Below, one piece after another: positions 36,201 through 62,559 of a DNA stretch of 64,000 nucleotides. The stretch is from positions 1 through 64,000 of the IMG/VR virus record IMGVR_UViG_3300044612_002737; one strand, 5' to 3'. Below the pieces are notes generated by a model. The model was given only the letters and a program-made list of their open reading frames with translations. It ran no database searches and had not been told where the DNA came from. Numbering within the stretch: position 1 is the stretch's first letter; each line of letters begins with the position of its first letter. This stretch comes from a virus. A program made the translations under genes and the position numbers.

Positions 36201-37990
36201 CGGTCTCCAAGTACCGCATCGACGTGAACGACATCCTCGAGGGTCGCGACAAGCTCTTGCTGGTCGGCGGCAATGTCTACACGGCGCGCCAGCTCCGCGA
36301 TACGTTCGTGGCTGAGGGGATCTTCTCGAGCTTCGACACTCGGCGTCTGGCTGATGGCGTCCGCATGGACGGCAACATCTTCGCGCGTGAGCTGGCGCAG
36401 ATCTCGGGCAGCCCCAAGAGCAGCGGTACGTTCGTTGACGCGGCCTCGCGCCTGATGGATGGCGTGCAGGACGTCACGGTCGACGTCGTCGACGACCTTT
36501 CCGACGCGTGGGCGGAGCGCGAGCGTGTCGGCGCGGTCATCACGCTGATGGAGACTGGAGTGGACGCACGCGCTGCGTGCCGCGTCACCGTCGACGCGCT
36601 GTACGACTACAGCCAGTCCATGACGAAGAGGGATCGCTCCTTCCTCGTCGGCACGGTGCTCCCGTTCTGGGCCTTCCAGAAGAACGCGAACCAGCAGTTC
36701 ATCAACGTGATGTTCAGCCCCTACGGCGCCTACCGCATGATGGCGCTCCAGCGCCTGCGCGAGGGGTCGGTGACGCTCGCGTCCGAGCTGTACTACGGCT
36801 ACATCGGCGGCGAGCTTGGCCTCGACGTCGACAACATGCCGCAGGACATGCAGGACCTCTACTACGCCATCATGACGAGGGCGCACGAGATCTACGGCGA
36901 CGACCTGCCCGACAACGTGCGCATCGGTCTGCGCATCGCGCTGACGGGTCGCGTCGGTGAGGTGGTCGACGGCAAGTACTACGAGCTCGACACGCGCCTC
37001 ATCGAGATGATGCGTTCGGGGGGTCTCGCCCCTGGCGGCAAGTTTGGTGGCGCCGGCATGGCCGACTACATGCTCGCCGCGCCGAACAAGTCCGGGCTGC
37101 CGTCCTACGTTCGCGACCGGTTCGGAATGGTCGCGCCGCAGCGCCGCAACGCGCTGGTGCGCCACTACACCGCGCTCATGGGCGGTGCGAACGAGGACTA
37201 CTTCTACTTCATGCTGCCGGAGTCCAGCGTCGAGACCGCGTACAAGCACACCGCCACGCTGCTCGGCGGCGCGTTCCTCACCGCCGGCGCGCTCAGCCCC
37301 GAGTGGGTGGGCATCCCCGGGGTGGACATCCTCGCCGGCGGCGCGGACGCCATCGGCCTCGGCGACATCGGCCGCGCGCTCCAGCCGGTTGTTGACCTCG
37401 AGCGCTCTCCGGTGATGGGCCTCGCGCTCGGCATGTACTCGGAGCGTGGCTACCCGCAGCGTCTCCACCCCAAGGTGGCGGCGGCACTTCAGCGCATGAC
37501 GAACATCCCCATCCTGCGCGTTCCCGCGAAGATGGACCCGTTCATGGGCGGCACGCTGCCGGACACGGACGAGGCGTTCCGGGCGCGCCTCGAGGCGGCA
37601 AACGCCGTGCAGGATGGTATCGTCGGCGGAACGGACGAGGCAGGCAACCCGACGGACCTCGTTCAGATCCTCGGCGAGGACTACGTGCGCATGGTGCAGG
37701 AGCTCAACAGCAAGGACCTGCCGGCTGACGTCATGGCGGTCGCGAAGGAGGAGCGGTTCTACCTTCCGCCCGGCTTCATGTCGCTGAGCTTCGAGAACAG
37801 CCCGCTCGGCGAGTTCAACCGCGAAGCCCTGCGCTGGGACCAGACGTCGAAGGAAGGGGCGGACCCTGCGGGGCAGGCCGCGTACTTCACGCGCGTGCTT
37901 CTCGGCACCGACGTCGTTCAAGTCGCCCCCTCGCGCACGGCTCAGCAGGAGGAGCCGGTGCGTTATACCAAGACCCGCGAGCCCATCTAG
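27260..37990 (+). CDS. Giant modular virion protein (3576 aa) with zincin-like site
   Basis: The product takes 17 percent of the window. The start is an ATGATG pair after a GAGGG site. Order seen: Ala/Pro linker (residues about 10-70), helical body, then Pro/Ala linkers framing a compact module (about 1170-1350); a second module (about 1400-1530, MYRPDRAYRFIGDAGF at 1436); Glu/Arg/Ala coiled segments; three copies of a small beta module (about 1657-1720, 1772-1855, 1910-1993); an HEGAH site (2255-2259) with a later EEMFATAFEKYV, the layout of zincin-like peptidases in phage polyvalent proteins; and a long helical C-terminus with GTVLPFWAFQKNANQQF near 3122-3150, a pattern of large phage ejection proteins. 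It likely enters the cell with DNA. Enzyme activity is inferred. Confidence 0.75.
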   Translation: MMANPQLDKFLKEAAAQKAATQAPAAVKPVAAAPKPPVLAVSPTAPVKAAAAVERSAPSAEPVTPSAEDVKKAEKMRADLLEELPLEDFYKEAARVPLTDIAVESYARKTKLPVDRFTSLAGAQGIDVEDMAQKAREGVPFAEYRRTRDGVIGFKPAAERFTELDRVASDYQTAERGEAPQRTIGIQKAQETTTSLPVFGEGYEVGGTTPDEIIETTKPGEHQYSIAAQFIDSFEKANPDVVSLTDMYGQNAGPGNTQKWIEKYVKMQVRNRGLTAASEDIDEQMGKLRRDAVYYILSKKTIGQWTPGVFVKDVQITDAERAKPLGTGEGFGAGVRDTFAAMAPNVEIVGFNNKGQAVVRQESPAGTALRLLDVLGVSPVGKVKGVPVVIPGQSAISGLITKDKDEGYLEAALRGVQTGATFIDAALDETKGRSTPVRAAAGLAALVPTVLYPDVTGAAEGAYTAAKAYRRVLQDRKIAKAAAPLLDELVAALKAGDYEKATKVESAIRSHPELSKGNHGVMQAQMSMDAQVVEKLKAMNPELASLTPTLGDELITVGVNQSPELAEAIYGEAVKGYPFLHFSKKAPELAARSEKEGIGPTLEAYVNSGDFGRHFQRIERAKAAFLKAAPKNSAEAIDQAVSGLAANLRAKSADVLRLGGAPAADAPRYDRLAKLLEDNKAAIIADPKAAFGKDGVLRQAIKADPVVGADDAREFRAAFYPQAARLSGRIEALKTVDFNTLYQNDLKVFDRAREAVEANIKSRMMAAELLKRELGTRAKINVVPTEILDDLMEPGTERLSAFATAKFIQTMQQLPKAADRKAWLAAFQTMDKMLRGAAELRGVPVDTYWRSIDIRVVDGKPVFVKGEDVVSAPKGPGPLDGFVDVADVQTAVARLRGALAGTDPSYRLKSLLRADGSQAGGEVAVGDVVVRAIRSPQPGAPYRVEVFVGAQQKAAFTSTGKLEDAINEGIDEAQNAMTGRVAAGEPAMREVVVPKPPKTAAQAAAQTSPADAAEEAAAVDSVAATPSAAPLHPKTETVVGGLDPALKADPDVVSRILAAVDKLKAGSKLPPPPKGANKVLMGAVREELLKSGVLVKLDDGSVVKAGTLPEDVKVAPTAAPPAPAPTAAPTAPPVAPTPAATVSVETTIARLVGASAPGAKAEVPAALDRAAADWGAKHSGKDWVIDPKSGVPFPNTPASMWASGAEDPASIRAFGAVEPGILGHGMGRPSSLRTAVADLLGMFQNGLTPGVGLGARYGEPALYTGEINVRADMGQALDTGSAAYRQVPFILVGRPNTTMFTGKLPEVGAVLVNPAHPEIVDELRAAVQRVRPDVQVGLFSEADRVVARMKQAAPTAPPVAPAPAPVASAFPVKAVEPAPATKIDADAPAADRTVRVAPALADEASLQAYNQSIRAQDTGAGISLDRDTLAAGDNIMYRPDRAYRFIGDAGFKDFEATGLVRAKQDTKAGYEVPYFMTGKTSGRYAARRGRPEYVVEMPITSEWRGGGDYVHPPADPKRTDGIRVFKREADGSYTVILDNIGDQALLTQKTAAEAEAPVFQRVAEEVAPPPEETLEELTARLSRDAEDLRAAEIRAEEEFAAAQAERERALAGRIAEDRRAARAREAAPPAEEAAAEPVIQRAPAAEEPLPAVRKAEGFRDKNSVNAGVYEVDIGGKTRRFFRDSKEGFYPRSFVEDVPTSADTPVLPFLGDTIEDAVKALQRMHGAEEAPAAARAAEEVVAEAAPAVERAVEEAPAAAKAEEAGTRTRIQELEAEVERLEPFTTATPKRTNVKKDSFTVEIAGKKIRLENDGDSWLDVATGSELGETADGAVGLLRERLVDYPYARAQRELSSLRRTERAAAETKAAEEAVSAAPTQPSGITTVAEAPVVREEIVAPPAPPVKAEPTVDELQATVARLEPLRDAKIKRTEVSKAGFTAEVAGQQVRVEKRGDNWVNAATGRNLGDNVTEATESLRTEFVLKPYTQAQDALRKLGQVQSTAATVSSLEDALSGVKKIKTQKDALRFFDVAEQLALDANEKAQIYESLAQKLEIMAGQAKSERAAGELETLSIRARDEVTAIRPAAETAPSAVAAAADALTEAQRHVQAVTNMRSLTHRAQVERPDGTFLMFGTAQNGVFTPAFAFRAFEGVKPSEILEVVYDQMRVSPDTMVAARREAEALLEGQTPIVREFPANKYANDADLKFGPGLRQVRPAQAGGPQVVTGAFKPGGGSGLAGTQSIIELAAKTADPTTLLHEGAHFIRKSILDTEDMDNVTAWLNSMGVKVNHEFGEFVGSADDIELAEEMFATAFEKYVVTGKAPTPALERAFELVKNAFAGAYRWMKSDAAKELYGEDALSPQVTAVFNRYFTAVPQKPIESTFDIIVRETRGAKTSDAEGALDVLAREATRKGMPKTAREDLVKKIAALKLSDDVPSETVLLEFPAPVLGKTEWTKGDIIELQAEVVRRRSQMAVVPVRQALFGQPEEEKVTENIYAALAEREEGGLAAGARGIARGMAKLVLGGDIVDERGTRALPEVLRRDLDTPARIIETTIGDSVSVLTQSTRDNDPSFMFRFLAGENLRFKSGRRVLSSGHEHITGFFDLYRNQYASMTREEQALLQEWAQLLNTTPNPENLRNPQTISEALASGAFPQNLMNVRNFADLEAQRKAKANAMVAALEKFIDLGGSGEGNIGGQLRKAIKDAAGEGSQIAFNEYRFAEVLLFLSGSTSRRGVRFLPVDKTFTKDQLVEQARVLLTDAQRIYGGEDDPLFSRRLSILVAAYGSSRRAKAELAALGAVLTAEEAHAFKGWTLGYDISPEMSAQLELVKNKFGLNAKFINETILGDNVYVPAQARARMADALAKAQFNNAKLTPTGDLYQKVWTYMKKRMTRGAFALRQRYFFVNTIDHFNQMYLLVGFAPAAASSARLLLQGLPVNVFGQGYETFIRLANRAGMGDRAAMERFRDLLSRGGDELAARIGSALSVSKYRIDVNDILEGRDKLLLVGGNVYTARQLRDTFVAEGIFSSFDTRRLADGVRMDGNIFARELAQISGSPKSSGTFVDAASRLMDGVQDVTVDVVDDLSDAWAERERVGAVITLMETGVDARAACRVTVDALYDYSQSMTKRDRSFLVGTVLPFWAFQKNANQQFINVMFSPYGAYRMMALQRLREGSVTLASELYYGYIGGELGLDVDNMPQDMQDLYYAIMTRAHEIYGDDLPDNVRIGLRIALTGRVGEVVDGKYYELDTRLIEMMRSGGLAPGGKFGGAGMADYMLAAPNKSGLPSYVRDRFGMVAPQRRNALVRHYTALMGGANEDYFYFMLPESSVETAYKHTATLLGGAFLTAGALSPEWVGIPGVDILAGGADAIGLGDIGRALQPVVDLERSPVMGLALGMYSERGYPQRLHPKVAAALQRMTNIPILRVPAKMDPFMGGTLPDTDEAFRARLEAANAVQDGIVGGTDEAGNPTDLVQILGEDYVRMVQELNSKDLPADVMAVAKEERFYLPPGFMSLSFENSPLGEFNREALRWDQTSKEGADPAGQAAYFTRVLLGTDVVQVAPSRTAQQEEPVRYTKTREPI
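30637..30666 (+). repeat. 30-bp direct repeat, left copy
   Basis: A perfect 30-bp repeat of 31312-31341, encoding Pro/Ala linker residues (PTAPPVAP). The two copies are 675 bp apart in the same frame and bound the first inserted module of the giant protein. Confidence 0.8.
31312..31341 (+). repeat. 30-bp direct repeat, right copy
   Basis: Exact match to 30637-30666. The DNA between them has a lower GC third-position bias than its surroundings (for example CTA, ACA, AAT and GGA codons near 31085-31170), consistent with an acquired segment. Confidence 0.8.
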
Positions 37991-45104: not shown

Positions 45105-45420
45105 CGGACACCTCGTTCTTGGTGCGGACACCGAGGCGGGCGCCTTCGGCCAGGTCCACGAGGTGCGCGACCCACTCCGAGGGCGTGGTCGGCTCGCCGG
45201 GCAGCCCCGAGGGCGTCGTGGCGAACGCCGTACCGAAGCCGCGGACGTGGCGCAGGGTCGGCATGCGGATGCCGTGGATCACGCGCGAGACCTCGGGCTG
45301 CGTGAGCCCGCCGCGGCGAGCGAGCTCGGCGAAGGACCAGTGGCGCGCCTTGCGGTGGCGTTCGACGAGTAGGATGAAGGGGTCACTCTCGGGTGAGATG
45401 ACGGACTTGATTTCGGACAC
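45097..45420 (-). CDS. Cro/CI-type (HTH_XRE) repressor
   Basis: A 107-aa DNA-binding protein. Residues about 15-50 form the helix-turn-helix, with SFAELARRGGLTQPEVSRVI as its core. It is divergent from the early operon beginning at 45527. Its promoter (TTGACG 45465-45470 with TAGGCT 45442-45447, reverse strand) abuts the early promoter, so it likely controls both. No integrase or lysogeny cassette was seen, so a role in early/late timing is as likely as lysogeny. Confidence 0.75.
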   Translation of the reverse strand: MSEIKSVISPESDPFILLVERHRKARHWSFAELARRGGLTQPEVSRVIHGIRMPTLRHVRGFGTAFATTPSGLPGEPTTPSEWVAHLVDLAEGARLGVRTKNEVSDG

Positions 45421-45441
45421 GGGAGCCTCCTTGGCTGTTGG

Positions 45442-45505
45442 AGCCTACCCTACCCGAACCGGAGCGTCAACTTTCCTTGACAGGGTGGTTGAGGGCCGAT
45501 ACCTC
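45442..45505. promoter_or_regulatory. Back-to-back sigma-70-like promoters of repressor and early operon
   Basis: Minus strand: TTGACG (45465-45470), 17 bp, TAGGCT (45442-45447). Plus strand: TTGACA (45477-45482), 17 bp, TACCTC (45500-45505). The two -35 boxes are six bases apart (CTTTCC), so a repressor bound there could block both. Each spacer contains GGTT. Confidence 0.7.
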
Positions 45506-45526
45506 TGGAGCACCACCGAGAGGACC

Positions 45527-47458
45527 ATGAGCATCAGCAGCATGTGGGACCAGCCCCACTACACCTACAGAGTCGCCCCCGACTACGCCCAGCACGCCGC
45601 TGCCGTAGAGACGCACTGTCCCGGCACACTCGCATGGGCGGTGCGCGGTCGTCGTCGCTATCGCCTCACTCGTAACGAGTGGCCCGACGATGGGCTACCC
45701 TCGCACGTCGAGATCTACGCACCTGTGCACGCGGCGTTCGTCGTCGAGCACTTCCTCAACGGCTGGGGCGTCTCGTTCGCCGCAGAGGAGCGGATGGGCG
45801 CGGCGGCGGTTCTGCCGTGGCCCACGACCCCGGAAGCACTGGACCGCTGCGCTCGCCAAGGGGCGGACCTCATCGCGCAAGAAGTGAAGCTGGGAGAGCT
45901 CAAGCCTCACGTCGCCGACATGGCGACGCCGTACCAGAAGCGCAGCGCAGCCTGGGCCGCGAGCCGTCCGTGGGTCATGAACGTGTGGCCCTGCGGCAGC
46001 GGCAAGACCGTGGGCGCGCTCATCGACGCGCTGACGCGCGAGGGCACCGTCCTCGTCATCTGCCCGGCCAAAGCCCGCCACGTCTGGTGGACGCAGGTCC
46101 AGCAGTACACGAACATCCTGCCGTGGCGCCTCATCCCTGAGAGCGAGCGGCGCAAGAAGGACATGACGTGGCAGCAGTACGAGGCGCACTGCGCCGAGAC
46201 GCGCCAGCGCCGGTTCATCATCGTCGGGGCCGAGAGCCTCAACGACAACGCCGAGTTCGTGATGAACCTCAGCCCCGAGGTCCTCATCCTCGACGAGCTG
46301 CACATCCACGGGCAGAGCAAGCGCTGGAAGGCCGTGCAGGAGAAGGACGGCAAGGTCGGCTTCACCCGCCGCCAGACCGCCAGCGGCGACAAGGACGCGT
46401 GGTCGGTCGCCATCATGGACATCAGCCGGCTGCCGAGCCTGAGCCTGCGTGTGGGCCTCACCGCCACGCCGCTCGACGACGGGCGCCCCAAGCGCCTCTG
46501 GGCGCAGCTCGACCTGCTCACCCCGGGCGGCTTCGCGCACAGCTACCGGCGCTTCGCGGAGCGCTACTGCGACGCGGTGCCGAACCCCTACGGCGGCATC
46601 GACGACAAGGGCAGCAGCAACATCGAGGAGCTCCGCGCCCGCTGCTCGTTCTTCACGCACGAGGTGCCCTACACCGAGAGCCACTCGAGCCTGCCCCCGA
46701 CGCGCATCCAGGTCGTCTACCTGCCGGTCTCCGCGCAGGACAAGCCGGAGCGCTACGATGACGCACAGACCTTCGATCAAGCCATCAAACAGCTTGCGCG
46801 ACAGGCCCGAGGTGAGTATGAAGATGTGCCGGCGCGGGAACGTCTCATTGAGGCGCGTCTCGCGGAGGCGAGCAGTCGGAAGCGCAGCTACGTCGTCGCC
46901 GAGGTCCTTGAAGGGCTGAAGGGCGGGGGCAAGGTCATCGTGTTCACTGCACGCCGCCGGGAAGCCGAGCGCTGGGGCGACGCGATCCGCAAGGTCGTGA
47001 GCGCCAGCGACGAGGTGAAGAACGCGACGGTCTGGGTTGGGCACGGCGGCGTAAGCGAGCCGGAGCGCAACGATATGATCGACGGGTTCCGAAGCAGCGC
47101 CGGTCCCTGCTGTTTGGTGGGGACCGGCCAAGCCTTCGGGATCGCAGTGGACGGGATGCAGACCGCCGACCTCGCGATCTTCGCCATGCTTCCGTGGAAG
47201 CCCGGTGACTTCCTTCAGTGGCGTGGCCGGTTCGACCGGCATGGCGGACGGGCCACGCTGCTGAAGGTTGTCGTCGCGTCTGCGACCTACGACGAGCGCG
47301 TCGTCGAGATCCTCACCGACAAGTTCGGTCCCATCGAGCAGTTCCTCGAGGCGGACGAGCTCGACGGCATGGGCGAGAAGCTGCTCGGCATGGAAGACCG
47401 CGAGTCCCTCGTGGACGACGTGGTCGGCAAGCTGTTCGTCATGGACGAGGAGGACTAG
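45527..47458 (+). CDS. SF2 (SNF2-like) DNA helicase
   Basis: A 643-aa ATP-driven DNA translocase or helicase. Residues 156-161 are CGSGKT (Walker A), DELH at 256-259 is motif II, TATP follows as motif III, and QWRGRFDRHG (about 563-573) is motif VI. About 130 residues precede the Walker A, a family-specific N-terminus. It is the first gene of the early operon and is followed at once by a nuclease gene, so it probably acts in phage recombination and replication. AGAGGACC precedes the ATG at 45527; the frame is open further upstream, but that part overlaps the promoters. Confidence 0.85.
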   Translation: MSISSMWDQPHYTYRVAPDYAQHAAAVETHCPGTLAWAVRGRRRYRLTRNEWPDDGLPSHVEIYAPVHAAFVVEHFLNGWGVSFAAEERMGAAAVLPWPTTPEALDRCARQGADLIAQEVKLGELKPHVADMATPYQKRSAAWAASRPWVMNVWPCGSGKTVGALIDALTREGTVLVICPAKARHVWWTQVQQYTNILPWRLIPESERRKKDMTWQQYEAHCAETRQRRFIIVGAESLNDNAEFVMNLSPEVLILDELHIHGQSKRWKAVQEKDGKVGFTRRQTASGDKDAWSVAIMDISRLPSLSLRVGLTATPLDDGRPKRLWAQLDLLTPGGFAHSYRRFAERYCDAVPNPYGGIDDKGSSNIEELRARCSFFTHEVPYTESHSSLPPTRIQVVYLPVSAQDKPERYDDAQTFDQAIKQLARQARGEYEDVPARERLIEARLAEASSRKRSYVVAEVLEGLKGGGKVIVFTARRREAERWGDAIRKVVSASDEVKNATVWVGHGGVSEPERNDMIDGFRSSAGPCCLVGTGQAFGIAVDGMQTADLAIFAMLPWKPGDFLQWRGRFDRHGGRATLLKVVVASATYDERVVEILTDKFGPIEQFLEADELDGMGEKLLGMEDRESLVDDVVGKLFVMDEED

Positions 47459-47461
47459 GCC

Positions 47462-47653
47462 ATGCTGACATTGTGTGCTGACCCTCGCTGCACGGCGGCC
47501 GGCAAGTGCTGGCGCGCGCAGTACGAGCGATACGGCAACGCGCCCGGCCTGAACTACGGGCCGCGCTGCACTCCCGCTGTCGCCGACGCCTACCGTGCCG
47601 TCATCCGCAACTTGCATGTGGGCCTGGGCCTCACCAAGAAGGAGAAGCCATGA
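47462..47653 (+). CDS. Small Cys-rich protein
   Basis: A 63-aa protein with CADPRCTAAGKCW and later GPRCTP; four Cys residues could bind zinc or join an iron-sulfur cluster of its neighbours. Between helicase and nuclease, with an ATGA overlap to the latter. No family recognised; possibly an accessory of the recombination machine. Confidence 0.55.
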   Translation: MLTLCADPRCTAAGKCWRAQYERYGNAPGLNYGPRCTPAVADAYRAVIRNLHVGLGLTKKEKP

Positions 47654-48609
47654 AGATGCTCATCGACGCCGGCAAGTCGAGCCGCGGCTGGAGCCGCATC
47701 GGCAACTTCGCGAAGTGCCCCCAGCTCTTCGCCTACCTCTACCGCATCGACGGCACGAACCTCGCGCCGCCCATCGAGGCGCTCGCCAAGGGGTCCATCG
47801 GGCACACGCTCCAGGCGCATCTGCACGCCATCTGGGGCGCAGGGCAGCCCCAGGGCGTGATGGTCGACGAGACCATGTACCACGACCCCAGCGTGTTCAT
47901 GGACCCCGAGGACGCGGCGCAGGCGTGGTGCGACAAGTACGGCAGCCACGAGCTGCTGCCGCAGATGTTCAAGGTGTTCCGCGCCTACCTCGCGAAGTTC
48001 CCCGAGAGCCCCGGCGACGTCATCGCTGTCGAGGCCCCGGTCACCGCGGTGCTAGGCACCCTGCGCGGGCAGTGGGGTCTGTGGGTCGGGGAAGAGAGGG
48101 GCGGCGAGTGGCGGAGCCTTGATGGTGCCTGCATCGAGGTGACGCCGCTGCACATGCCCGACCACCGAGAACATGGGCGTCCGATCACGCTCACTCGCCG
48201 CATTGACCTCGTAACACGCGACAAGTCCGGTCGCTACTACATCTGGGACCACAAGCACCAGGCCAGCGTGAACGGCAAGAGCAGCGCCGAAGCCTACGCC
48301 ATCGACGGCGGCTTCGCGGCGTTCCGCATCATGGGCAAGCAGCTCTACGGCGAGGCGTTCGGCGGCGTCTCGCTCAACCTCATCAGCTCGACCCAGCCCG
48401 GCAAGGTCGTGCGTGAGCAGGTCCCCTCGACGCCCCACCGCGACGCCGGCTACGCGAAGTGGCTGTGGTGGGCGGAGCACCAGATCGCGCAGCTCGACCT
48501 CACGACCGATCCGTGGGAGTGGCCGAAGGCCCAGAACGAGCTCTCGTGTTATGGACGGTACGGAGCCTGTGCCGGGCTCAACCTCTGCTCCCTCGGCCCT
48601 CGGGCTTGA
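47650..48609 (+). CDS. Cas4/RecB-type PD-(D/E)XK nuclease
   Basis: A 319-aa nuclease. The catalytic core is seen as RIDLV (D186) followed by IWDHKH (D200, K202). One Cys near the N-terminus (NFAKCPQLF) and three at the C-terminus, spaced C-x6-C-x5-C (SCYGRYGACAGLNLCS), resemble the iron-sulfur cluster of Cas4 and AddB type nucleases. Together with the helicase, the ATPase and the DUF669-like protein it forms a typical phage recombination set. Starts at the ATGA overlap. Confidence 0.8.
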   Translation: MKMLIDAGKSSRGWSRIGNFAKCPQLFAYLYRIDGTNLAPPIEALAKGSIGHTLQAHLHAIWGAGQPQGVMVDETMYHDPSVFMDPEDAAQAWCDKYGSHELLPQMFKVFRAYLAKFPESPGDVIAVEAPVTAVLGTLRGQWGLWVGEERGGEWRSLDGACIEVTPLHMPDHREHGRPITLTRRIDLVTRDKSGRYYIWDHKHQASVNGKSSAEAYAIDGGFAAFRIMGKQLYGEAFGGVSLNLISSTQPGKVVREQVPSTPHRDAGYAKWLWWAEHQIAQLDLTTDPWEWPKAQNELSCYGRYGACAGLNLCSLGPRA

Positions 48610-48670
48610 GGGTGCGCCTCGTCGTCTGTGGCCCTACGACGGGGTGGATCAACGGGCCGGAGACCACCAC

Positions 48671-49663
48671 ATGAGCGAAACGCAGCACCCGTCGGTGATG
48701 ATCACCGTGTACGGGAAACCCAAGAAGAAGAAGACCAGCGACGTGCTGGCCGCGTTCCCGACCGCGCTCTGCATCGGTGTGCCGAGCGCCATTGCGCTCG
48801 TCGCCGAGAACGAGCTGGGGTTCACCCCCGCCATCCACCCCGAGCCGCCGCAGACCCTGCCGGAGCTCGTGGGGCTCCTCGACTACCTGTCGCGCAGTGG
48901 GATGGCGAAGCAGTACGGCGCCGTGTTCATCGACGACGCGAGCCACATCTGCGACCGCAGCCTCGCCGTCTGGCACGAGGAAGCGCCGCTCGGCAAGAGC
49001 GGGAAGAAGGACAAGTTCTACGCCTACCAGCAGCTCAACAAGTACCTGCTGGCGATGTCGGGCCTCGCCCGCCACATGGGCGTGCACCTCATCTTCACGT
49101 TCCACGAGCGCCCCCCGGGGACGGACAGCGACGGCTTCTTCCAGCCGGGCGGCCCGAGCCTGGGCTCGAGGAAGCAGACCGAGATCCTCCCGTCGTGGTG
49201 CGACATCAACGTGCGCGCGATGGTCGACCCGACTTACCCGGACCCCTGGTTTCCGGGCACCTACTTCTGCGACCCCACGAACCCCGAGTGGGTGACGGGC
49301 GACCGGACGGGCGTGTGCTGGGCGAAGACCCCGGGCAACCTGCGCGAGATCCTGCGTGCGTCGGCGGGCGGCTACGTCCCGGCTCGCGTGCCCGGGCTCG
49401 AGTGGCAGGACGACGTGGCCGAAGAGCTGGCTCAGAAGATTTTTGAGACCGGCGATGTGCGCGGTAGCATCGAGAAGATCGCGGCCACGCACCCCCGCTT
49501 CAGCGACGGGACTTCGCAGATTCATCTCCGTTGGGCTTGCCAAGACGGTATTGCCCGGGCTACCTTCATGAAGCGCAAGGCGAGGAACCTCTTCGACCTC
49601 GCGCCCAAGGAAGAGGCCAAGAAGGGTGGAGGCGTGCCAGTGCCGCCCCCTTCCGCAACCTGA
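48671..49663 (+). CDS. Sak4-like recombination ATPase with degenerate P-loop
   Basis: A 330-aa protein. Order and context (helicase, Cas4-like nuclease, then DUF669-like protein) and the start VMITVYGKPKKKKTSD match the Sak4/AAA_24-type RecA-fold ATPases of phages. The Walker A has G15 and then K-P-K-K-K-K-T, so the second Gly of GxxxxGK is replaced by Lys. Walker B is seen as AVFIDDASH with D88/D89. A sensor-like HLIFTFHERPPG follows. It may load on single strands with altered ATP binding, or be a structural paralogue. Ending residues are Pro-rich. Confidence 0.7.
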   Translation: MSETQHPSVMITVYGKPKKKKTSDVLAAFPTALCIGVPSAIALVAENELGFTPAIHPEPPQTLPELVGLLDYLSRSGMAKQYGAVFIDDASHICDRSLAVWHEEAPLGKSGKKDKFYAYQQLNKYLLAMSGLARHMGVHLIFTFHERPPGTDSDGFFQPGGPSLGSRKQTEILPSWCDINVRAMVDPTYPDPWFPGTYFCDPTNPEWVTGDRTGVCWAKTPGNLREILRASAGGYVPARVPGLEWQDDVAEELAQKIFETGDVRGSIEKIAATHPRFSDGTSQIHLRWACQDGIARATFMKRKARNLFDLAPKEEAKKGGGVPVPPPSAT

Positions 49664-50444: not shown

Positions 50445-50888
50445 GTGGCGGAGGACTACTACTCGCAGATGGCGGAGATGAAGCGCGGCGCCCGTGAGGC
50501 AGACGCGAGCGCCGCGAAGGCGGGCGAGTCCTGCCCCATCGCCACGCAGGACATCAAGACCAACCTCAAGAATCGGCAGAAGGCCATCGACAACGCGATG
50601 TACGGGCCGCCGAACCCGGGAGAGCCGAACGACGAGTTCTGGCAGAAGCTCGCGGACACCTGGGGCACGAGCCTCGAGCAGGCGCGGACGATGCTGTGCG
50701 GCAACTGCGCGGTGTTCGTCGTGACGCCCGCGATGAAGGAGTGCATCCGGGTCGGGCTCAGCCAGGGCGAGGCGGACGGCTACGACGCCGAGGTGCAGAC
50801 CGAGCTCGGCTACTGCAAGATGTTCGACTTCAAGTGCGCCGCGAGCCGAACCTGCCGCGCATGGGTCGCAGGCGGCCCGATTCAGTGA
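50445..50888 (+). CDS. Iron-sulfur-type cysteine protein
   Basis: A 147-aa protein from GTG 50445. Seven or more Cys residues lie in the order C(30), LCGNCAVF, MKECIRV, GYCKMFDFKC, RTCRAW; this last block resembles the high-potential iron-sulfur protein pattern and a phage family of unknown function. An electron-carrier or cluster role is likely but not shown. It is flanked by a ferritin-like gene, and its translation start is in a hairpin. Confidence 0.65.
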   Translation: MAEDYYSQMAEMKRGAREADASAAKAGESCPIATQDIKTNLKNRQKAIDNAMYGPPNPGEPNDEFWQKLADTWGTSLEQARTMLCGNCAVFVVTPAMKECIRVGLSQGEADGYDAEVQTELGYCKMFDFKCAASRTCRAWVAGGPIQ

Positions 50889-50914
50889 TACCATCGGCAG
50901 GACAGAGGCACACG

Positions 50915-51346
50915 ATGCTGCTCTCCACGCTGCTGAACCTGTGGGCCGACCTTCGGGCCGCGCACCACCTCTACTGGACCCTGCACTGGCAGGCCCGTGG
51001 TCCGTCGTTCTACGGCGACCACAGCCTGTTCGCGGGCCTGTACCAGGAGAAGGCGGGGCAGATCGACGCGCTCGCGGAGATCATCGCGGCGCACTACGGC
51101 AGCGACAAGCTCGACCCCGTGAAGGCGTGGGCCGCTGCGGCGCCGAAGGTCGAGCAGCTCACCGCGGGCCAGAGCGCGGTCGCCATCGCCGAGTACGTCA
51201 TCCAGTGCTGCGAGAGCACCAACGAGCTCATCCTCGAGAGCGGCGAGTGCCCCTACCCGGCGGGCCTCAGCAACTTCGTGAGCGACCTGTCCACGAAGAA
51301 CATCAAGGACCTGTACATGCTGAAGCAGCGCTTCGGCTCGAAGTAG
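50915..51346 (+). CDS. Ferritin/Dps-like protein
   Basis: A 143-aa four-helix-type protein. LRAAHHLYWTLHWQARGPSF then FAGLYQEKAGQIDALAEII is the Dps/ferritin-like N-terminal pattern (H..H W . . . GP F, then iron-site Asp/Glu). Similar proteins occur in T4-like phages (DUF5856-type). It may bind iron or DNA. The start ATG at 50915 begins the domain; the open frame before it overlaps the previous gene. Confidence 0.65.
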   Translation: MLLSTLLNLWADLRAAHHLYWTLHWQARGPSFYGDHSLFAGLYQEKAGQIDALAEIIAAHYGSDKLDPVKAWAAAAPKVEQLTAGQSAVAIAEYVIQCCESTNELILESGECPYPAGLSNFVSDLSTKNIKDLYMLKQRFGSK

Positions 51347-51385: not shown

Positions 51386-51823
51386 ATGAACACCGACCTC
51401 ATGTTCTCCTCGGCCACGGACCAGTGGGCGACGCCTCAGGCGTTCTTCGACCAGTGGAACGAGATCTTCCGGTTCACGCTTGACGTGTGCGCGGACGCCG
51501 ACAACGCGAAGTGCGCTCGGTACTTCACGCGCGAAGACAACGGGCTGGCGCAAGACTGGGGCCAGGACGTGTGCTGGATGAACCCACCCTACGGCCGAGA
51601 GATCGGGCGCTGGGTGGCGAAGGCGTATCGGGAGAGCCGGGCCGGCGCGACCGTCGTCTGCCTGCTTCCTGCGCGCACGGACACGGCGTGGTGGCACGAC
51701 TACATCATCCCGATGGCGAAGGTGACGTTCATCCGCGGTCGGCTGAAGTTCGGGGACGCCACGAGCGGTGCGCCGTTCCCGTCTGCGGTCGCCGTCTTCT
51801 ACCCACCGAAGGTGGTCCCGTGA
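51386..51823 (+). CDS. Dam-type DNA N6-adenine methyltransferase
   Basis: A 145-aa phage Dam-family enzyme that methylates adenine in DNA with S-adenosylmethionine. The active-site motif NPPYG is near residues 68-72 and the preceding WATPQAFFDQW is the family's start. Length is short, as in phage Dam proteins of this group. It overlaps the polymerase start (GTGA), so the two are translated together. It could protect phage DNA or mark new strands. Confidence 0.85.
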   Translation: MNTDLMFSSATDQWATPQAFFDQWNEIFRFTLDVCADADNAKCARYFTREDNGLAQDWGQDVCWMNPPYGREIGRWVAKAYRESRAGATVVCLLPARTDTAWWHDYIIPMAKVTFIRGRLKFGDATSGAPFPSAVAVFYPPKVVP

Positions 51824-54654
51824 GCTACGACCCACGAACCTGCGGCGCCCGTTGCAACGAGTGCCCGCTGGGGCCGAACGGCACGTTCCGTTCAGGCCAC
51901 TGGCAGCCTGTTGCACCTGAGTTGCATGACGGCGCGACGGTCATCGCCGTCGCCGAGATGCCGAGCCACGACGAGGTCGGCTTCGGCCGTCCTCTGTCCG
52001 GGCGCAGCGGGGGCGAGTGGAACCTCGCGCTGCTCGCCGCCGGGAAGAAGCGCTCCGACGTCGACCTGACGCACGTCGTCGCGTGCTCGGCCGGCACGGA
52101 CAAGAACGCGTGGGAGAAGCTGACCAAGGCTCTCGACAAGGAGAACCGTCGGCGTCTCGCACAAGCGCAACCCCTCATCCCCGATCCTATCTCGTGCTGC
52201 CGACCCAGGCTCCTCGAAGAGACAAGTCGTTACGAGAACATCATCACGCTGGGCCGTGCCGCGGCCAACGCCCTGACGGCGAAAGCGCAGTCGGTGTTCG
52301 CGCTGCGCGGTGGTCCGGTGTGGGTGGACGAGCACTATCAGGCCCTCATGCAGACGCCGCTGGCGGGCGAGCAGAAGCCCGACGGAGCGGTACGCAAGGT
52401 GTTCCCCACCCTGCACCCCGGCTTCGTCCAGAAGAGCCCAGGCTGGCGTGCCACGATGGTGGCGGACCTCTCGAAGGCGCTGCGCTGGTTCGCGGGTCAG
52501 CTCCGGTGGACCGAGCCGGTGCGCTACTTCAACCCGACGCCAGACGAGCTGCGCCGCTTCCTCTCGAACATCAGCGCGCCGTTCTGGGCCTACGACCTCG
52601 AGACGGACGGCATCGAGGCGCTGACGTGTCAGGTGCGGTCCATCGCCATCGCACACCCCGACCTCAACTACGAGGGGCGGGCACTGCGCGAGGGCCAGAT
52701 CGAGGCGCTGCGCTGCGGTGTGGTGGGGCTCAACATCCTGTCGGGCGACGGGTTCACGCGCTTCTACTCGGCCGAGGACGAGGCCGAGATCCACGACATC
52801 CTGCGCGAGTTCTTCCTCGACCCGACGAAGGTCAAGGTGGGGCACAACGCCGGCTACTACGACCGGCAGGTCGTCGAGCAGTGGCTCGGCGTGACGCCGA
52901 AGCCCATCATCGACACGCTGTTCGCGGCGCGCTTCCGGGCGCCTGACCTGCCCAAGGGACTGAAGACGGTGGGCTCGGTGCTCACCGACGTGGACCGCTG
53001 GGAGACCACGGAGAAGGGCGAGAGCCTCGCGCACGGCAAGGTCGACGACTGGGACCGCCTCGCCTACAACTGCACCGACAGCAGCGTGAACGCGCGCATC
53101 GTCGTGCCGCTGCTCGACGCCGCGGAAGAGGCCGGCGCGTTCCGCGACCTGAACGAGGAGCTCCGGCCGCCGGGCTGGGAGAGCCGGCGCTGGGACCTGC
53201 ACGAGGTCGACCATGCCACGCAGGAGATGTGCGTGAGCCTCCACAAGATCGGCGTCTACGTCGACCAGGAGGCGCGCTTCAAGATGGAGATCGAGACGCG
53301 GGCCAGCGTCGAGAAGCGTGAGAAGAACCTCACGACGCTCGCGCAGGCAGTCGGTGTCGCGCGGCTCGACATGAAGAGCGCGGGCGCCAGCGACGACGCG
53401 GACGTCGAGGGCATCCGGCCCGGCAGCGCTGACCAGATCCGCGACCTGCTCTACGAGAACTGGAAGCTGGGCATCCCACCGAACATGGAGGCGCGCGACT
53501 TCTACACCGAGTCCGGCATGCCGGGCACCGGCGACAAGGTGCTGCGCGGCCATCTCGCGGGCGGCCGGCTGACGAAGCCGCAGGAAGACTTCATCCGCGA
53601 GCTGCGCCTGTACCGGCGCGAGAAGAACAAGATCCTCGGCACCGTGCTCCTGCCGCTGAACCTCACGGCGCACGACCCGAAGAAGGGGATCATCTGGCAC
53701 CACGACGGGCGCGTGCGCTCGACGTGGAACGCCCACGTCACGGCGCCTGGGCGGCTCTCGAGCAGCGGGCCCAACCTCCAGAACATCGGCAGCCGGAAGG
53801 GGCAGGGCAAGCTCAAGACCCTGTTCGCGGCGCAGCCCGGCCACCTTCTCGTCGGCGCGGACCTCGACCAAGCGCACCTCCGCATCACGGCGAGCTACTG
53901 GAAGATCCCGCTCCTGCTCGAGTGCTTCAGCGAGGGGAAGGACCCGCACAACACGCTGGCGTACCAGGTCTTCGGGGACAAGTTCAAGGCGGCGGACGGC
54001 TGGGGACCCGAGGGCTACAGCCTCTACCGCAAGCCGCCGGGCGGCATGGCGAAGGCGATGCGCGACGTCATGAAGACGTTCCGCTACGCCTCGATCTACT
54101 GGGCCGACCCGATGACGGTCTGGCAGGTGCTGACCTCGACCGAGGCCGACAACGGCGAGATGCCGTACCTGCACATGACCTCGAAGGAGGTCCGCCACTT
54201 CCACGAGACGTGGCTCAAGACCGAGCCCGAGTGGATGCAGGCGTGGGACGCGATGCTCTCCATCTACCGCCACCAGGGCTACATGGAGGAGCCGGTCTTC
54301 GGTCGGCGCTCCGGCAACCTCACGGACGGGAAGAAGAACGAGGTGGTCAACTTCCCCATCCTCGCCGCGGAGACGAGCATCATGCGCGTCGCCGAGCAGC
54401 ACATCATCCACGCCTTCCCGTGGGACCTCGACCGCCGGCTCGGCCTCATCCACCAGTGCCACGACTCCGTCGCCATCGAGGTCGAGGCGCCGCCGGGCCT
54501 CGAGAAGTGGAAGCCGACGAAGGGCGAGCCGCTGCCGCCGGAGCTCGAGCGGATGCGCAAGACCCTCGAGGAGTGCATGACCGTGAGGGTTCCCGGCTGG
54601 GAAGTGCCGTGCACCGCCGAGGCATCCGTCGGCAGAAACCTCAAAGAGGCTTGA
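51820..54654 (+). CDS. Uracil-DNA glycosylase / DNA polymerase I fusion
   Basis: A 944-aa protein starting at GTG 51820. Residues about 1-225 are a family-4/5-like uracil-DNA glycosylase: EMPSHDEVGFGRPLSGRSG (47-64) corresponds to the motif GEAPGxxED..GRPFVGRAG, and LHPGFVQKSPGWR (199-211) is the second motif; C12, C15, C89 and C126/127 could hold a 4Fe-4S cluster. A 3'-5' exonuclease begins with YDLETDG at 258. The polymerase has motif A ADLDQAHLRI (D681), motif B RDVMKTFRYASIYW (748) and motif C HDS (881-883). It would copy the phage genome, and the extra domain may remove uracil from it. Confidence 0.85.
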   Translation: MSYDPRTCGARCNECPLGPNGTFRSGHWQPVAPELHDGATVIAVAEMPSHDEVGFGRPLSGRSGGEWNLALLAAGKKRSDVDLTHVVACSAGTDKNAWEKLTKALDKENRRRLAQAQPLIPDPISCCRPRLLEETSRYENIITLGRAAANALTAKAQSVFALRGGPVWVDEHYQALMQTPLAGEQKPDGAVRKVFPTLHPGFVQKSPGWRATMVADLSKALRWFAGQLRWTEPVRYFNPTPDELRRFLSNISAPFWAYDLETDGIEALTCQVRSIAIAHPDLNYEGRALREGQIEALRCGVVGLNILSGDGFTRFYSAEDEAEIHDILREFFLDPTKVKVGHNAGYYDRQVVEQWLGVTPKPIIDTLFAARFRAPDLPKGLKTVGSVLTDVDRWETTEKGESLAHGKVDDWDRLAYNCTDSSVNARIVVPLLDAAEEAGAFRDLNEELRPPGWESRRWDLHEVDHATQEMCVSLHKIGVYVDQEARFKMEIETRASVEKREKNLTTLAQAVGVARLDMKSAGASDDADVEGIRPGSADQIRDLLYENWKLGIPPNMEARDFYTESGMPGTGDKVLRGHLAGGRLTKPQEDFIRELRLYRREKNKILGTVLLPLNLTAHDPKKGIIWHHDGRVRSTWNAHVTAPGRLSSSGPNLQNIGSRKGQGKLKTLFAAQPGHLLVGADLDQAHLRITASYWKIPLLLECFSEGKDPHNTLAYQVFGDKFKAADGWGPEGYSLYRKPPGGMAKAMRDVMKTFRYASIYWADPMTVWQVLTSTEADNGEMPYLHMTSKEVRHFHETWLKTEPEWMQAWDAMLSIYRHQGYMEEPVFGRRSGNLTDGKKNEVVNFPILAAETSIMRVAEQHIIHAFPWDLDRRLGLIHQCHDSVAIEVEAPPGLEKWKPTKGEPLPPELERMRKTLEECMTVRVPGWEVPCTAEASVGRNLKEA

Positions 54655-59639: not shown

Positions 59640-60403
59640 CGGGGAAGGCGTGGACGACCAAGAAGGTCGAGCGTGTGTGGAACCGGATGCGCGCGGGCAC
59701 GAGCGCGCAGACCATCGCAGCCGAGATGGGCTGCACCGTGACGAACATCCACAAGCGGCTGCGCGGCGCCGGGTACGACCCGGAGACGGGCCGGCGCGAG
59801 GACTTCAGCGGCAGCGCCAAGCTGATCCTCGAGCGACGCAAGGCCGGCGTGGAGTTCGCTGACATCGCGGTGGAGCTCGGCATGGAGCCGACGAAGCTCA
59901 ACGTGCGCCGGCTCTACATGCGGCTGGTCCGCTACTGCGAGCGGGCCGAGGTGGCGTACCCTCGGATGCCGAAGAAGCGGCGCAACGGCAAGCGGTACGG
60001 ACCCGCCACCATCGAGCCGCTGATGATCGCCGACGCCGTGGTCGCCATCAACAAGCGGATGAAGCGCGGCGAGCAGACCGACGCCCTCGACCTGACTGAC
60101 GCTACGGGCTACTCGGAGCGGACAACGAAAAGCATCATCGCCGAGATGCGCCGCCGAAAGATGCTGGCCGACGGCATCGTGCCGACCGTGGGCAAGCCGG
60201 ACCCGGACGATCTGGTAGGCTGCGAGCGCGCAGTTCTGGACGCCGTCCGGGCGGCGTGGGCCGACAAGAAGCGGTCCTGCGAAACACTGACCACCCTCTG
60301 TGAGTCGACGGGCTACGCTCGTTCGACCCTTAACCTCGCCATCGGGAAGCTCCGAGACATCGGGCTCCTCGAACCCCGCGGCTTCCTCTACCTGCGAGCA
60401 TGA
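59636..60403 (+). CDS. Helix-turn-helix DNA-binding protein
   Basis: A 255-aa protein with several HTH-like helices. The N-terminus has TSAQTIAAEMGCTVTNIHKR, a resolvase-like HTH; the middle FADIAVELGMEPTKLNVRRL is another; the end (TTLCESTGYARSTLNLAIG then IGLLEPRGF) is a winged-helix-like element. Probably a regulator or initiator for the DUF927 gene that follows with an ATGA overlap. Confidence 0.65.
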   Translation: MTGKAWTTKKVERVWNRMRAGTSAQTIAAEMGCTVTNIHKRLRGAGYDPETGRREDFSGSAKLILERRKAGVEFADIAVELGMEPTKLNVRRLYMRLVRYCERAEVAYPRMPKKRRNGKRYGPATIEPLMIADAVVAINKRMKRGEQTDALDLTDATGYSERTTKSIIAEMRRRKMLADGIVPTVGKPDPDDLVGCERAVLDAVRAAWADKKRSCETLTTLCESTGYARSTLNLAIGKLRDIGLLEPRGFLYLRA

Positions 60404-62559
60404 CCATGAACACCGAACCAGAGTACGACGAGACCGAGAAGCGAGACGCCGTCAACGACGGGCTCGACCTGCTGCGTGTCCTTCAGAACCAGCTCTCCTC
60501 GACGGAGAAGACGAACCACCTCGCAGCGTGGGCTGCCATCCAGCGACCCGAGGCGCTCAACGACATCGCGGCTGCGTGGGTGGCGGACGAGGCCCAGGTC
60601 ACCGGCATGCTCGCCGTGATCGAGATGCTGCCGGGGCAGGTCACGCGCACCCGCGCGCTCCGCAACGCGTTGAAGCGGATCGTCATCGAGAAGCGGCGTG
60701 CCGCGCTCGACCGCGTTATCGGGGTCGTGCAGGACAACACGCTCATCTCCCTCGGCATCGCCTTGGGGGCTGGCGCCCCGCCCGCATCGCTGGTCGAACC
60801 CCAGCTGCTGGACTCACTCAAGGTTCCCCGCGGCTACGCGGTGGACCCGACCGGTGTCTTCAAGCTGTCTGTCATGGCTGACGGAACGGCGGCGTCGACG
60901 CGCGTGGCTACTGCTCCTGTGTTCATCGTGGGTCGGTCTCACGACGTGCTGACCGGTGGCGCGAAGCGCGTGCTGATGTGGCGCACGCCGGCCGGGTGGA
61001 CGATGCGCCCCGTGGACCGCGGCGTCCTGATGAACAGCCAGAAGCTCATCGGCTTGGCAGACCTCGAGGTGCCCGTCACCTCGAACACCTCGGCTGCGGT
61101 GGTCGAGTGGCTCGCCGAGTTCGAGGCGGAGAACATGCACCGCTTCGGCAGCAACCAAGCGGCGAGCCGCATGGGCTGGTTGAAGCAGGGCGGGATCCAC
61201 GGGTTCCTGCTGCCCGAGACGTTCTTCACGACGGCGACCAGTGAAGAGGAGAGCTGCGTGGAGCTCGTGCCGCAGGCCGGGCTCGAGGCGCTCCTCGAGG
61301 GATGGAAGCCCAGCGGAACGTGGGAGGGGTGGCTCGACGCGATGGACACCATGCGCCCGTTCACTCCGATGTGGCTCGCGCTCTACGCCTCGTGCGCGGC
61401 GCCCATGCTCGAGATCATCGGCAGCCCGTCATTCGTGGTGGACTTCAACGGTGAGACCTCGACCGGCAAGACGACGGCGATGCGCGTGGCGGCCAGCGTG
61501 TGGGGCCGCCCGTCCGATAGCATGCCGACGGCGATGTACTCGTGGGACAGCACGAAGGTGTTCATCGAGCGCATCTGCGGGTTCCTCTGCAACCTGCCGG
61601 TGATCCTCGACGAGACGAAGCGGGCCAAGGACAAGCAGATCGTGCGCGACGTGGTGTACGACTTCGCGAACGGGCAGGGCCGCGGTCGCGGGTCGCCGGA
61701 CGGCACGCGCCAGACGGCGAGCTGGCGCAGCATCATGCTCACCTCGGGCGAGGCGGCGGCCACCAGCTTCAGCCAGGACGGCGGCACCCGTGCGCGCGTG
61801 CTCTCCATCACGGGCCGGCCGATGGGCACGAACATGAAGGCGGGCGGACCGGCCGCCGAGCTTCTCGCTGCGCAGTTGCAGGAACACTACGGTCACCTCG
61901 GCCGTCGGCTCATGCACTACCTCGTGAGCGTGGCGGACCAGCACGAGGCGCTGCGTGAGGTCTGGCGCGACACGCGCGACCAGTACGCGGCGGTCGCCAA
62001 GACCGCGGTGAGCCGGCGCCACGCCGGCAACCTCGCCACCCTGCACCTCGCCTCGACCATCGTGCACGAGAGCCTCGGCGTGCCGTACCCCGAGGAGGAC
62101 CCGATGGCGTTCGCGCTCGAGGCCGTCATGCAGATCGAGACCGAGAAGGACCGCCCGCACGCGGCGTTCATCGAGGTCATCGGCTGGTGCTCGGCGAACC
62201 AGAACCGGTTCTGGGGTCGGCACGAGGTGGACCGCGAAGGCGCGCCGCGCGTGCCGGGCCGCGGCTGGGCGGGCTCGTGGTCGGGCGAGGACGAGTGGAA
62301 GGTCATCAGCCTCATGCCGCACGTCCTGCGTGAGGTCCTCGAGCCGATGGGCTACCACGTCGACGAGATCCTCGACCGCTGGGCGGAGCGCGGGTGGATC
62401 GTGCTGTCGGAGCGCACCTCGGCAAGCAAGTCGGCGAAGAGCCGCACGACGGTCACGCGCATCAACGGGGCGCCCATGCGCGTCTACCAGTTCAGCCGGA
62501 CGTCGGTCGACAACCACGTCGCAGACGACGAGGTGATGCGTGGCAACGCCGACGTCTGA
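60400..62559 (+). CDS. DUF927-type helicase/primase-associated ATPase
   Basis: A 719-aa protein. The DUF927 region covers about residues 200-540: NSQKLIGLADLEVPV, then GETSTGKTT (351-359, Walker A), ILDET (Walker B, D404) and GGTRARVLSI. The family includes phage replicative helicase-like ATPases. An N-terminal 200 residues are of unknown type. Its C-terminus has a winged-helix-like tail. It likely opens the origin or moves DNA at the fork and replaces a hexameric helicase, which is not seen here. Confidence 0.8.
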   Translation: MTMNTEPEYDETEKRDAVNDGLDLLRVLQNQLSSTEKTNHLAAWAAIQRPEALNDIAAAWVADEAQVTGMLAVIEMLPGQVTRTRALRNALKRIVIEKRRAALDRVIGVVQDNTLISLGIALGAGAPPASLVEPQLLDSLKVPRGYAVDPTGVFKLSVMADGTAASTRVATAPVFIVGRSHDVLTGGAKRVLMWRTPAGWTMRPVDRGVLMNSQKLIGLADLEVPVTSNTSAAVVEWLAEFEAENMHRFGSNQAASRMGWLKQGGIHGFLLPETFFTTATSEEESCVELVPQAGLEALLEGWKPSGTWEGWLDAMDTMRPFTPMWLALYASCAAPMLEIIGSPSFVVDFNGETSTGKTTAMRVAASVWGRPSDSMPTAMYSWDSTKVFIERICGFLCNLPVILDETKRAKDKQIVRDVVYDFANGQGRGRGSPDGTRQTASWRSIMLTSGEAAATSFSQDGGTRARVLSITGRPMGTNMKAGGPAAELLAAQLQEHYGHLGRRLMHYLVSVADQHEALREVWRDTRDQYAAVAKTAVSRRHAGNLATLHLASTIVHESLGVPYPEEDPMAFALEAVMQIETEKDRPHAAFIEVIGWCSANQNRFWGRHEVDREGAPRVPGRGWAGSWSGEDEWKVISLMPHVLREVLEPMGYHVDEILDRWAERGWIVLSERTSASKSAKSRTTVTRINGAPMRVYQFSRTSVDNHVADDEVMRGNADV

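Follow-up and report, generated by a model that had tools for sequence, protein, structure and literature searches.

A uracil-DNA glycosylase-like domain with a worn predicted uracil pocket on a phage family-A DNA polymerase

The window analysed here is the whole stretch of 64,000 nucleotides covering positions 1 to 64,000 of the virus record IMGVR_UViG_3300044612_002737. The following genes concern us:

45119..47458, plus strand, DNA helicase, start uncertain (phrog_62, 1.6e-46)
47506..48609, plus strand, exonuclease (phrog_1218, 1e-6)
48413..49663, plus strand, Sak4-like ATPase, start uncertain (phrog_124, 3.4e-10)
50696..51346, plus strand, DNA-binding protein (phrog_3636, 2.4e-11; Pfam differs, with Ferritin at 3.1e-6)
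51386..51823, plus strand, Dam methyltransferase gene (PF05869, 1.4e-32)
51820..54654, plus strand, gene for a uracil-DNA glycosylase (UDG)-like domain fused to a 3'-5' exonuclease and a family-A DNA polymerase (944 aa, GTG start)
60400..62559, plus strand, primase/helicase (phrog_8841, 4.4e-100)

The fused polymerase gene sits within a phage replication module. Its frame is also open further upstream, to a GTG at 51487; we favour the start at 51820 because of the alignment with relatives and the GTGA overlap with the Dam gene. Dam adjoins the fused polymerase in only 33 of 112 locus entries (with many contigs counted twice), and 32 of these are close relatives of the window. We thus rejected Dam as a functional partner of the polymerase and regard it as a local feature outside the mechanism.

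An earlier note, made from the letters of this DNA, had proposed that a glycosylase, an exonuclease and a polymerase are joined in one protein of 944 residues, with a Dam gene just upstream in a GTGA overlap. Both observations hold: the overlap is present, the frame is open, and Pfam detects the three domains on a single chain in this order:

51844..52515, plus strand, UDG-like domain, about residues 9–232 (PF03167; model pLDDT 81.6, pTM 0.82)
52576..53139, plus strand, 3'-5' exonuclease domain (D259, E261, N343, D348, Y416, D420)
53407..54639, plus strand, polymerase domain (PF00476; D681, R748, K752, Y756, Y760, H881, D882)

The UDG match (1.1e-6) reaches 29.2 bits at a cut-off of 24.3, and the polymerase match (1.4e-29) is also above its cut-off. 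The match to DNA_pol_A_exo1 (1.2e-4, 22.3 bits) falls 1.3 bits under the cut-off of 23.6, with the exonuclease residues intact. Across the family alignment, E261, N343 and D348 are each found in 74/74 rows, Y416 and D420 in all 73 rows with a letter, and D259 in 73/74, where the lone K comes from a misaligned row (L015). The polymerase residues D681, R748, K752 and Y756 are conserved in 72/72 rows and D882 in the 68/68 with a letter. The modelled polymerase part matches PDB 4dsj with a Z of 29.5, so that the window protein has both the fold and the catalytic residues of a family-A DNA polymerase. The same fusion was found in relatives at 40 loci in one search and 79 in another, with contigs partly shared. 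Since the fusion recurs in independent contigs, chance or mis-assembly is ruled out as its source. On the best explanation, a group of phages uses this protein as its replicative family-A polymerase.

PDB matching of the full-length model covered residues 229–944, and the UDG-like domain was therefore folded and searched separately. Its model matches PDB 4zbx (Z 19.5, 177 residues, 2.6 A), UdgX (Z 19.2, tied with family 4) and 1ui1 (Z 18.7). The entry 2d3y, which we take to be a family-5 UDG, is farther (Z 14.6). The model thus predicts a UDG fold of the family-4/UdgX type; of the label family-4/5-like given in the earlier note, the family-4 part stands and the family-5 identity is rejected. 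The domain scores below the cut-off of both NCBIfam profiles, with 39.3 bits against 125.3 for family-4 UDG (TIGR00758) and 29.5 bits against 189.95 for UdgX (TIGR03914). The fused relative L044 passes the family-4 profile with 181.4 bits. The hallmark of UdgX is a KRRIH loop with a covalent-bond His.

Within the domain, we mapped the following residues, with counts from the aligned window family:

51853..51864, plus strand, C12 and C15, first two cluster-cysteine candidates (73/73 each)
51949..51975, plus strand, motif 1 region, residues 44–52, with E46 (E41 of Tth UDG in the 1ui0 alignment)
51994..51996, plus strand, L59 in place of the pocket Phe (F54 of Tth UDG; F in 2/73)
52072..52074, plus strand, H85 in place of the pocket Asn (N80 of Tth UDG; N in 28/73)
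52084..52086, plus strand, C89, third cluster-cysteine candidate (73/73)
52144..52161, plus strand, basic loop N109–R112, on to A114 (aligns with the KRRIH loop of a UdgX chain; UdgX His absent)
52195..52200, plus strand, C126–C127, fourth cluster-cysteine candidate(s) (C126 72/73, C127 73/73)
52414..52419, plus strand, motif 2, H199–P200 (H155 of Tth UDG; H 55, S 16, A 2 of 73)

The family comprises 78 distinct rows including the window, with near-identical contigs and fragments counted apart. Five rows were dropped, four because the domain is absent from the aligned piece (L036, L079, L110, L125) and one for an intein-like insert and misalignment (L015). The four candidate cysteines noted beforehand are present and conserved, consistent with a putative Fe-S cluster of family-4 type, and both glycosylase motifs are present in the window (A-E-M-P-S and H-P-G). 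Failure of these motifs in homologues had been set in advance as a reason to abandon the glycosylase reading, and the outcome is divided: position 46 is E in 71 rows (D and N in one each) and the motif-2 His is kept in 55/73, but it is lost in 18/73. The window retains the motif-1 Glu and the motif-2 His of family 4 and lacks its pocket residues, F54 (which stacks) and N80 in Tth UDG. All four key residues occur together in two rows only (L115 and L117, with identical domains). Thinning to 43 representatives below 90% identity leaves F in 1, N in 15 and H in 35. At the level of sequence, then, the family-4 uracil pocket is eroded in the window family and the cluster cysteines are conserved. 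The basic loop is also conserved, with N109 in 73/73 rows, K or R at 110 in 73/73 and R112 in 69/73. His was found at the aligned position 114 in 0/73 rows, and a covalent trap of the UdgX type is rejected on this ground.

For comparison, we used stand-alone viral UDGs. From the best 80 matching loci, 37 were set aside as their frame runs on, giving 40 rows including the seed and 31 in a stricter repeat with no long extension at either end. The pocket Phe is found in 37/40 rows, the pocket Asn in 39/40 and the motif-2 His in 38/39; the stricter set gives 30/31, 30/31 and 29/30. Motif 1 is an unfair basis for comparing fused and stand-alone domains because the control scan pattern contained it. 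We set Fisher tests aside, since they take no account of relatedness. Wear also occurs outside fusions, as in the stand-alone UDG of phage Cantare (GDMP, FSPE); the exclusion of this UDG from the seed of the control scan makes the control lean toward intact enzymes.

In extending the comparison to other groups, 301 rows were reduced to 269 by removing identical C-termini and to 255 by removing rows with motif gaps or fewer than 350 residues. On a FastTree polymerase tree of these 255 UDG-PolA rows, which joins distant groups, the state of the His changed at least 16 times, a count that cannot separate loss from gain; under midpoint rooting, 3 of the 16 come out as regain. Counted per group, there are 2 changes in the window family, 7 in A4, 1 in A6 and 7 in A7. 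Four rows scored as motif-less carry a His one column over (AH). His-Pro is retained in 58/75 rows of A4, 31/58 of A7 and 49/65 of the window-family rows in the tree, hence many fused domains may be active. In the actinophage-type group A6, which includes a row without a Pfam UDG match (L051), the motif-1 acid is also gone in 46/57 rows. The UDG domain of the His-less clade has a median dN/dS of 0.041, compared to 0.030 in the rest of the protein (18 usable of 20 pairs, dS < 2). These ratios indicate that the domain remains under purifying selection. Furthermore, phage PolIII-alpha proteins with a UDG tail have the motif-2 His in 0/21 rows and the motif-1 Asp in 21/21 (Pfam was run on two); the 21 remain from 25 distinct rows after removing L255, L256, L258 and L260, which are not such fusions.

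When comparing the window protein to known systems, we find that the UDG-polymerase architecture itself is already known, and what is new here is the wear of the pocket across relatives. The earlier note called the fusion uncommon and perhaps undescribed, which is wrong: a query with the UDG domain of L044 matched 131 phage records, and among the 60 listed rows 41 carry a DNA polymerase annotation. The best-ranked named record, the Rctr197k PolA (KX853510), has CxxC, DCCRPRL and the domain order in common with the window protein at 26% overall identity. The polymerase of Thermus phage phiLo, whose structure is solved (PDB 9qhs), likewise belongs to family A and carries a UDG-like domain at its N-terminus; it is the sole polymerase among the listed matches of our domain model (Z 14.9). 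Its UDG domain is 21–24% identical to that of the window and retains GEAP and HPS. An SPO1-like phage polymerase (SPO1L2, L050) has UDG (8.5e-22), exonuclease and PolA as in the window, but the cluster cysteines are absent in the alignment. The DNA of SPO1 contains hmU. The UdgX of Mycobacterium smegmatis resembles the window domain in its fold and in the position of a basic loop, but it has the covalent-bond His. The phage PolIII alpha of the ZY21 and B1VFA type also ties a UDG-like domain to a replicase; it differs in polymerase family, in carrying the domain at the C-terminal end and in lacking the His throughout. Vaccinia D4 is a family-1 enzyme and E9 a family-B polymerase. According to published abstracts, D4 acts with E9/A20 as a polymerase processivity factor and is an active, separate subunit, whereas the window domain is fused to its polymerase. 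Pseudomonas phage PaBG gp205, of the 'Lupandier' jumbo phages, is described with the domain order of the window protein, and its authors report that no phage UDG beyond the PaBG group is close (PMC7412058). In the open-licence literature searched, PaBG was the sole UDG-PolA description recognised, and none was seen for phiLo 9qhs or the UDG-PolIII alpha type.

Our main reading, whose chances we judge to be evenly balanced, is that the domain has largely ceased to cut uracil and is a DNA-gripping or template-reading pseudo-glycosylase on the polymerase rather than a standard uracil remover. The N-terminal domain would descend from a family-4/UdgX-like uracil-DNA glycosylase and would now be a DNA-holding module that grips either the template or single-stranded DNA in front of the active site. 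Such a grip could raise processivity, or it could make the polymerase slow down where a base is deaminated or flipped out. If the domain were an active glycosylase on the template strand, it would create abasic sites ahead of its own polymerase, and this may be why replicase-tied UDGs repeatedly lost activity. More tentatively, we suggest that phages repeatedly tied a UDG to the replicase, at one end of PolA and at the other of PolIII alpha, and then repeatedly made it a pseudo-glycosylase, that is, a base-flipping template reader or clamp. Archaeal family-B polymerases have a uracil pocket; if our reading is true, the phage domain would be a viral counterpart of this pocket and of poxvirus D4. 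If catalysis has been lost recurrently and under selection, a widespread component of phage replicases would be misread as repair. It becomes testable whether a phage polymerase uses a retired repair enzyme to read or clamp the template, and polymerases pausing at uracil or tolerating it might be of use in sequencing and PCR. As E46 and H199 remain, the window domain cannot be called dead from its sequence. Moreover, motif 2 is described as helping to hold the minor groove (PMC3210769), so that a domain without the His may be less active and yet not inactive.

The retained E46 and H199 would also suit an active glycosylase with changed specificity, in which L59 and H85 adapt the pocket to a different base that the polymerase meets in the DNA of the host or of a rival, for instance a modified pyrimidine or a deaminated purine. 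At its position, H85 is the residue seen most often in the window clade (39/55 rows bearing the motif-2 His), and in six other UDG-PolA phages inspected thymidylate-synthase or hydroxymethylase genes adjoin the fusion. We nevertheless consider this explanation unlikely, since a related clade has lost H199 entirely and is still under purifying selection. Furthermore, thymidylate synthase PF00303 was matched in 0/15 large records of the window group and ThyX in 1/15; nothing therefore points to these enzymes modifying bases in the group. Together with the lack of matches to dUTPase PF00692 (0/15), this led us to reject a tie to thymidylate-synthase-type base modification there. The missing PF00692 could instead let dUTP enter phage DNA, which would favour ordinary repair coupled to synthesis, where the domain excises uracil and the polymerase fills in. 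The search for dUTPase_2 was also negative (0/15) but carries little weight, with only one match, below the cut-off, in 14 control genomes. In each of the 15 records, the single UDG match is that of the polymerase. Fold, cluster cysteines, Glu and His are all consistent with repair, and the PaBG description ascribes uracil removal to the same domain (PMC7412058). Coupled removal, as proposed in the earlier note, is weakened by the substituted Phe and Asn, the Ser or Ala in place of the His, and the low family-4 score that L044 far exceeds. In addition, AP endonuclease (PF03372 or PF01261) was matched in 0/15 records, which may be fragments, and the host may supply one. We judge ordinary repair improbable, and template reading, the other idea of the earlier note, appears to fit better. 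The earlier interpretation finds partial support, in that the fusion is real, as is the fold of family-4 type, and the coupling is weakened.

Template reading or gripping also has to be weighed against a purely structural cap, in which the domain just completes the exonuclease/polymerase fold with no DNA contact. The stretch KA.RWF...LRW.EP at the C-terminal end of the domain is among its best conserved parts, as such a cap would predict. However, the basic loop N109–R112 is conserved nearly as strongly, and in Kuura and RHph_TM39 the UDG and the polymerase lie on separate genes, which makes a cap very improbable. Lastly, a genome scan gave 19 loci; of two inspected, L127 carries the UDG domain in full and its motifs are canonical, and at L145 the frame begins inside the UDG domain.

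The source virus record has 67205 bases, of which the window covers bases 1-64000. Around the polymerase gene we find a replication module with helicase, exonuclease, Sak4-like ATPase, DNA-binding protein, Dam and polymerase, and a primase/helicase farther along.

51820-54654, + strand: polymerase gene, 944 residues, GTG start overlapping the stop of the Dam gene
27260-37990, + strand: a single 3576-aa frame elsewhere in the window

The reading frame and the Pfam order (UDG, then a weak 3'-5' exonuclease, then DNA_pol_A) bear out the earlier note, which had described the three domains in one 944-residue protein; the Dam gene that it placed just upstream, overlapping the polymerase start, was also confirmed. 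Residues 229-944 of the full-length model (pLDDT 83.1, pTM 0.75; 31 rows) match Klenow-type polymerases (Z 29.5 to 4dsj, 558 residues, 3.8 Å). When modelled alone (pLDDT 81.6; 20 rows), the UDG domain matches family-4 UDG (Z 19.5) and the mycobacterial UdgX (Z 19.2) equally, and the Thermus phage phiLo polymerase with Z 14.9.

This fusion of UDG, exonuclease and PolA is a known architecture and not a new one. The note had considered it uncommon and perhaps undescribed, which is contradicted by gp205 of Pseudomonas phage PaBG, where the same three domains are present according to its published description (PMC7412058), and by the results of a UDG query that matched 131 phage records: among the 60 matches listed, 41 are annotated as DNA polymerase, five of these as PolIII alpha. 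A Pfam scan of 20 proteins from phage records detected UDG in 19, the exception being the Gordonia phage Jamzy protein, and DNA_pol_A in the same chain in 15 (partial in two). Two further UDGs are located at the C-terminus of PolIII alpha (L148 1630-5022 and L149 1597-4965; Pseudomonas ZY21 and Rhizobium B1VFA), and two have no polymerase domain: in Kuura, a Caulobacter phage (L048 2489-5893), and RHph_TM39, a Rhizobium phage (L156 3375-6724), UDG and polymerase are encoded by separate genes. In the PDB, some UdgX chains are named 'Phage SPO1 DNA polymerase-related protein'.

In the alignment with the family-4 Tth UDG (1ui0), E46, L59, H85 and H199 occupy the positions of E41, F54, N80 and H155. 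The residue numbering derives from this alignment; F54 and N80 are pocket residues of the enzyme. Among the 73 distinct rows of the window family, Glu is found at the E46 position in 71, Phe at the F54 position in two and Asn at the N80 position in 28, whereas the candidate cluster cysteines C12, C15, C89 and C127 are each present in all 73. The motif-2 position holds His in 55, Ser in 16 and Ala in two rows, and only L115 and L117, two relatives with identical UDG domains, combine all four key residues. By comparison, stand-alone viral UDGs have Phe in 37/40, Asn in 39/40 and His in 38/39 rows with a letter (30/31, 30/31 and 29/30 when long frames are excluded). Thus, the frame is maintained while the pocket drifts. 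A basic loop is kept at the position of the UdgX loop (N109 and K/R110 in 73/73, R112 in 69/73); the UdgX His is absent. The unfused UDG of the Brevibacterium phage Cantare (L418 367-1056) is also worn, with GDMP and FSPE replacing the usual motifs; it lies outside the seed of the stand-alone control and counts against wear being restricted to fused domains.

The motif-2 His was followed on a FastTree phylogeny built from the exonuclease-polymerase portion of UDG-PolA proteins. Of its 255 rows, 149 carry His-Pro and 106 were scored without it, four of the latter having His one column over. The His state changed at least 16 times. Rooted at the midpoint, Fitch parsimony counts 13 losses and three regains, with insecure direction; the nine single-row losses were inspected by eye for misalignment. 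His-Pro is retained in 49/65 tree rows of the window family and, in the other UDG-PolA groups, in 58/75 (A4), 11/57 (the actinophage-type A6) and 31/58 (A7), so that activity may persist in many of the fused domains. In A6, the motif-1 acid is also gone in 46/57 rows. The PolIII alpha fusions retain the motif-1 Asp and have Ser (9) or Asn (12) at motif 2 (His in 0/21).

In the His-less clade, the median dN/dS is 0.041 for the UDG domain (18 usable of 20 pairs, dS<2) and 0.030 for the rest of the protein, values that are rough as many pairs are near dS saturation; the five pairs with dS<1.2 give 0.036 and 0.019. In the window clade (54 pairs), the UDG domain has 0.263 compared to 0.213 for the exonuclease and 0.190 for the polymerase. 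These ratios indicate that the worn domain is still under selection, evolving somewhat faster than the rest, yet not free.

With about an even chance of being right, we favour a UDG domain that would hold DNA or read the template for the polymerase over one that removes uracil. The main rival is a glycosylase with changed specificity, since the window protein retains both E46 and H199. According to PMC3210769, motif 2 holds the minor groove; its loss might thus weaken the enzyme and no more. Among 15 large records, which are possibly fragments, neither thymidylate synthase (PF00303), dUTPase (PF00692) nor AP endonucleases (PF03372, PF01261) were detected, and ThyX was found in one. The gene content thus speaks against a phage-encoded repair pathway and against thymine modification in the window group; repair and dUTPase could both be supplied by the host. 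UDG was matched once in each of these 15 records, always in the polymerase frame. In other phages, UDG-PolA genes are located near genes for thymidylate synthase, dCMP deaminase or hydroxymethylase (L044, L049, L151, L152, L155, L157).

The residues of the exonuclease and polymerase sites are kept throughout the window family. At residues 681-688 (DLDQAHLR; window 53860-53883), His is found at the site equivalent to Klenow E710, the steric-gate position, in 72/72 rows with a letter, whereas the consensus in A4 and A6 is Glu. Y756 places Tyr at the F762 position. The polymerases of some relatives contain intein-like insertions of ~310-370 residues at two sites, in the O-helix after KTFRYA (L013, L014, L016) and in exo motif II after VGH (L015).
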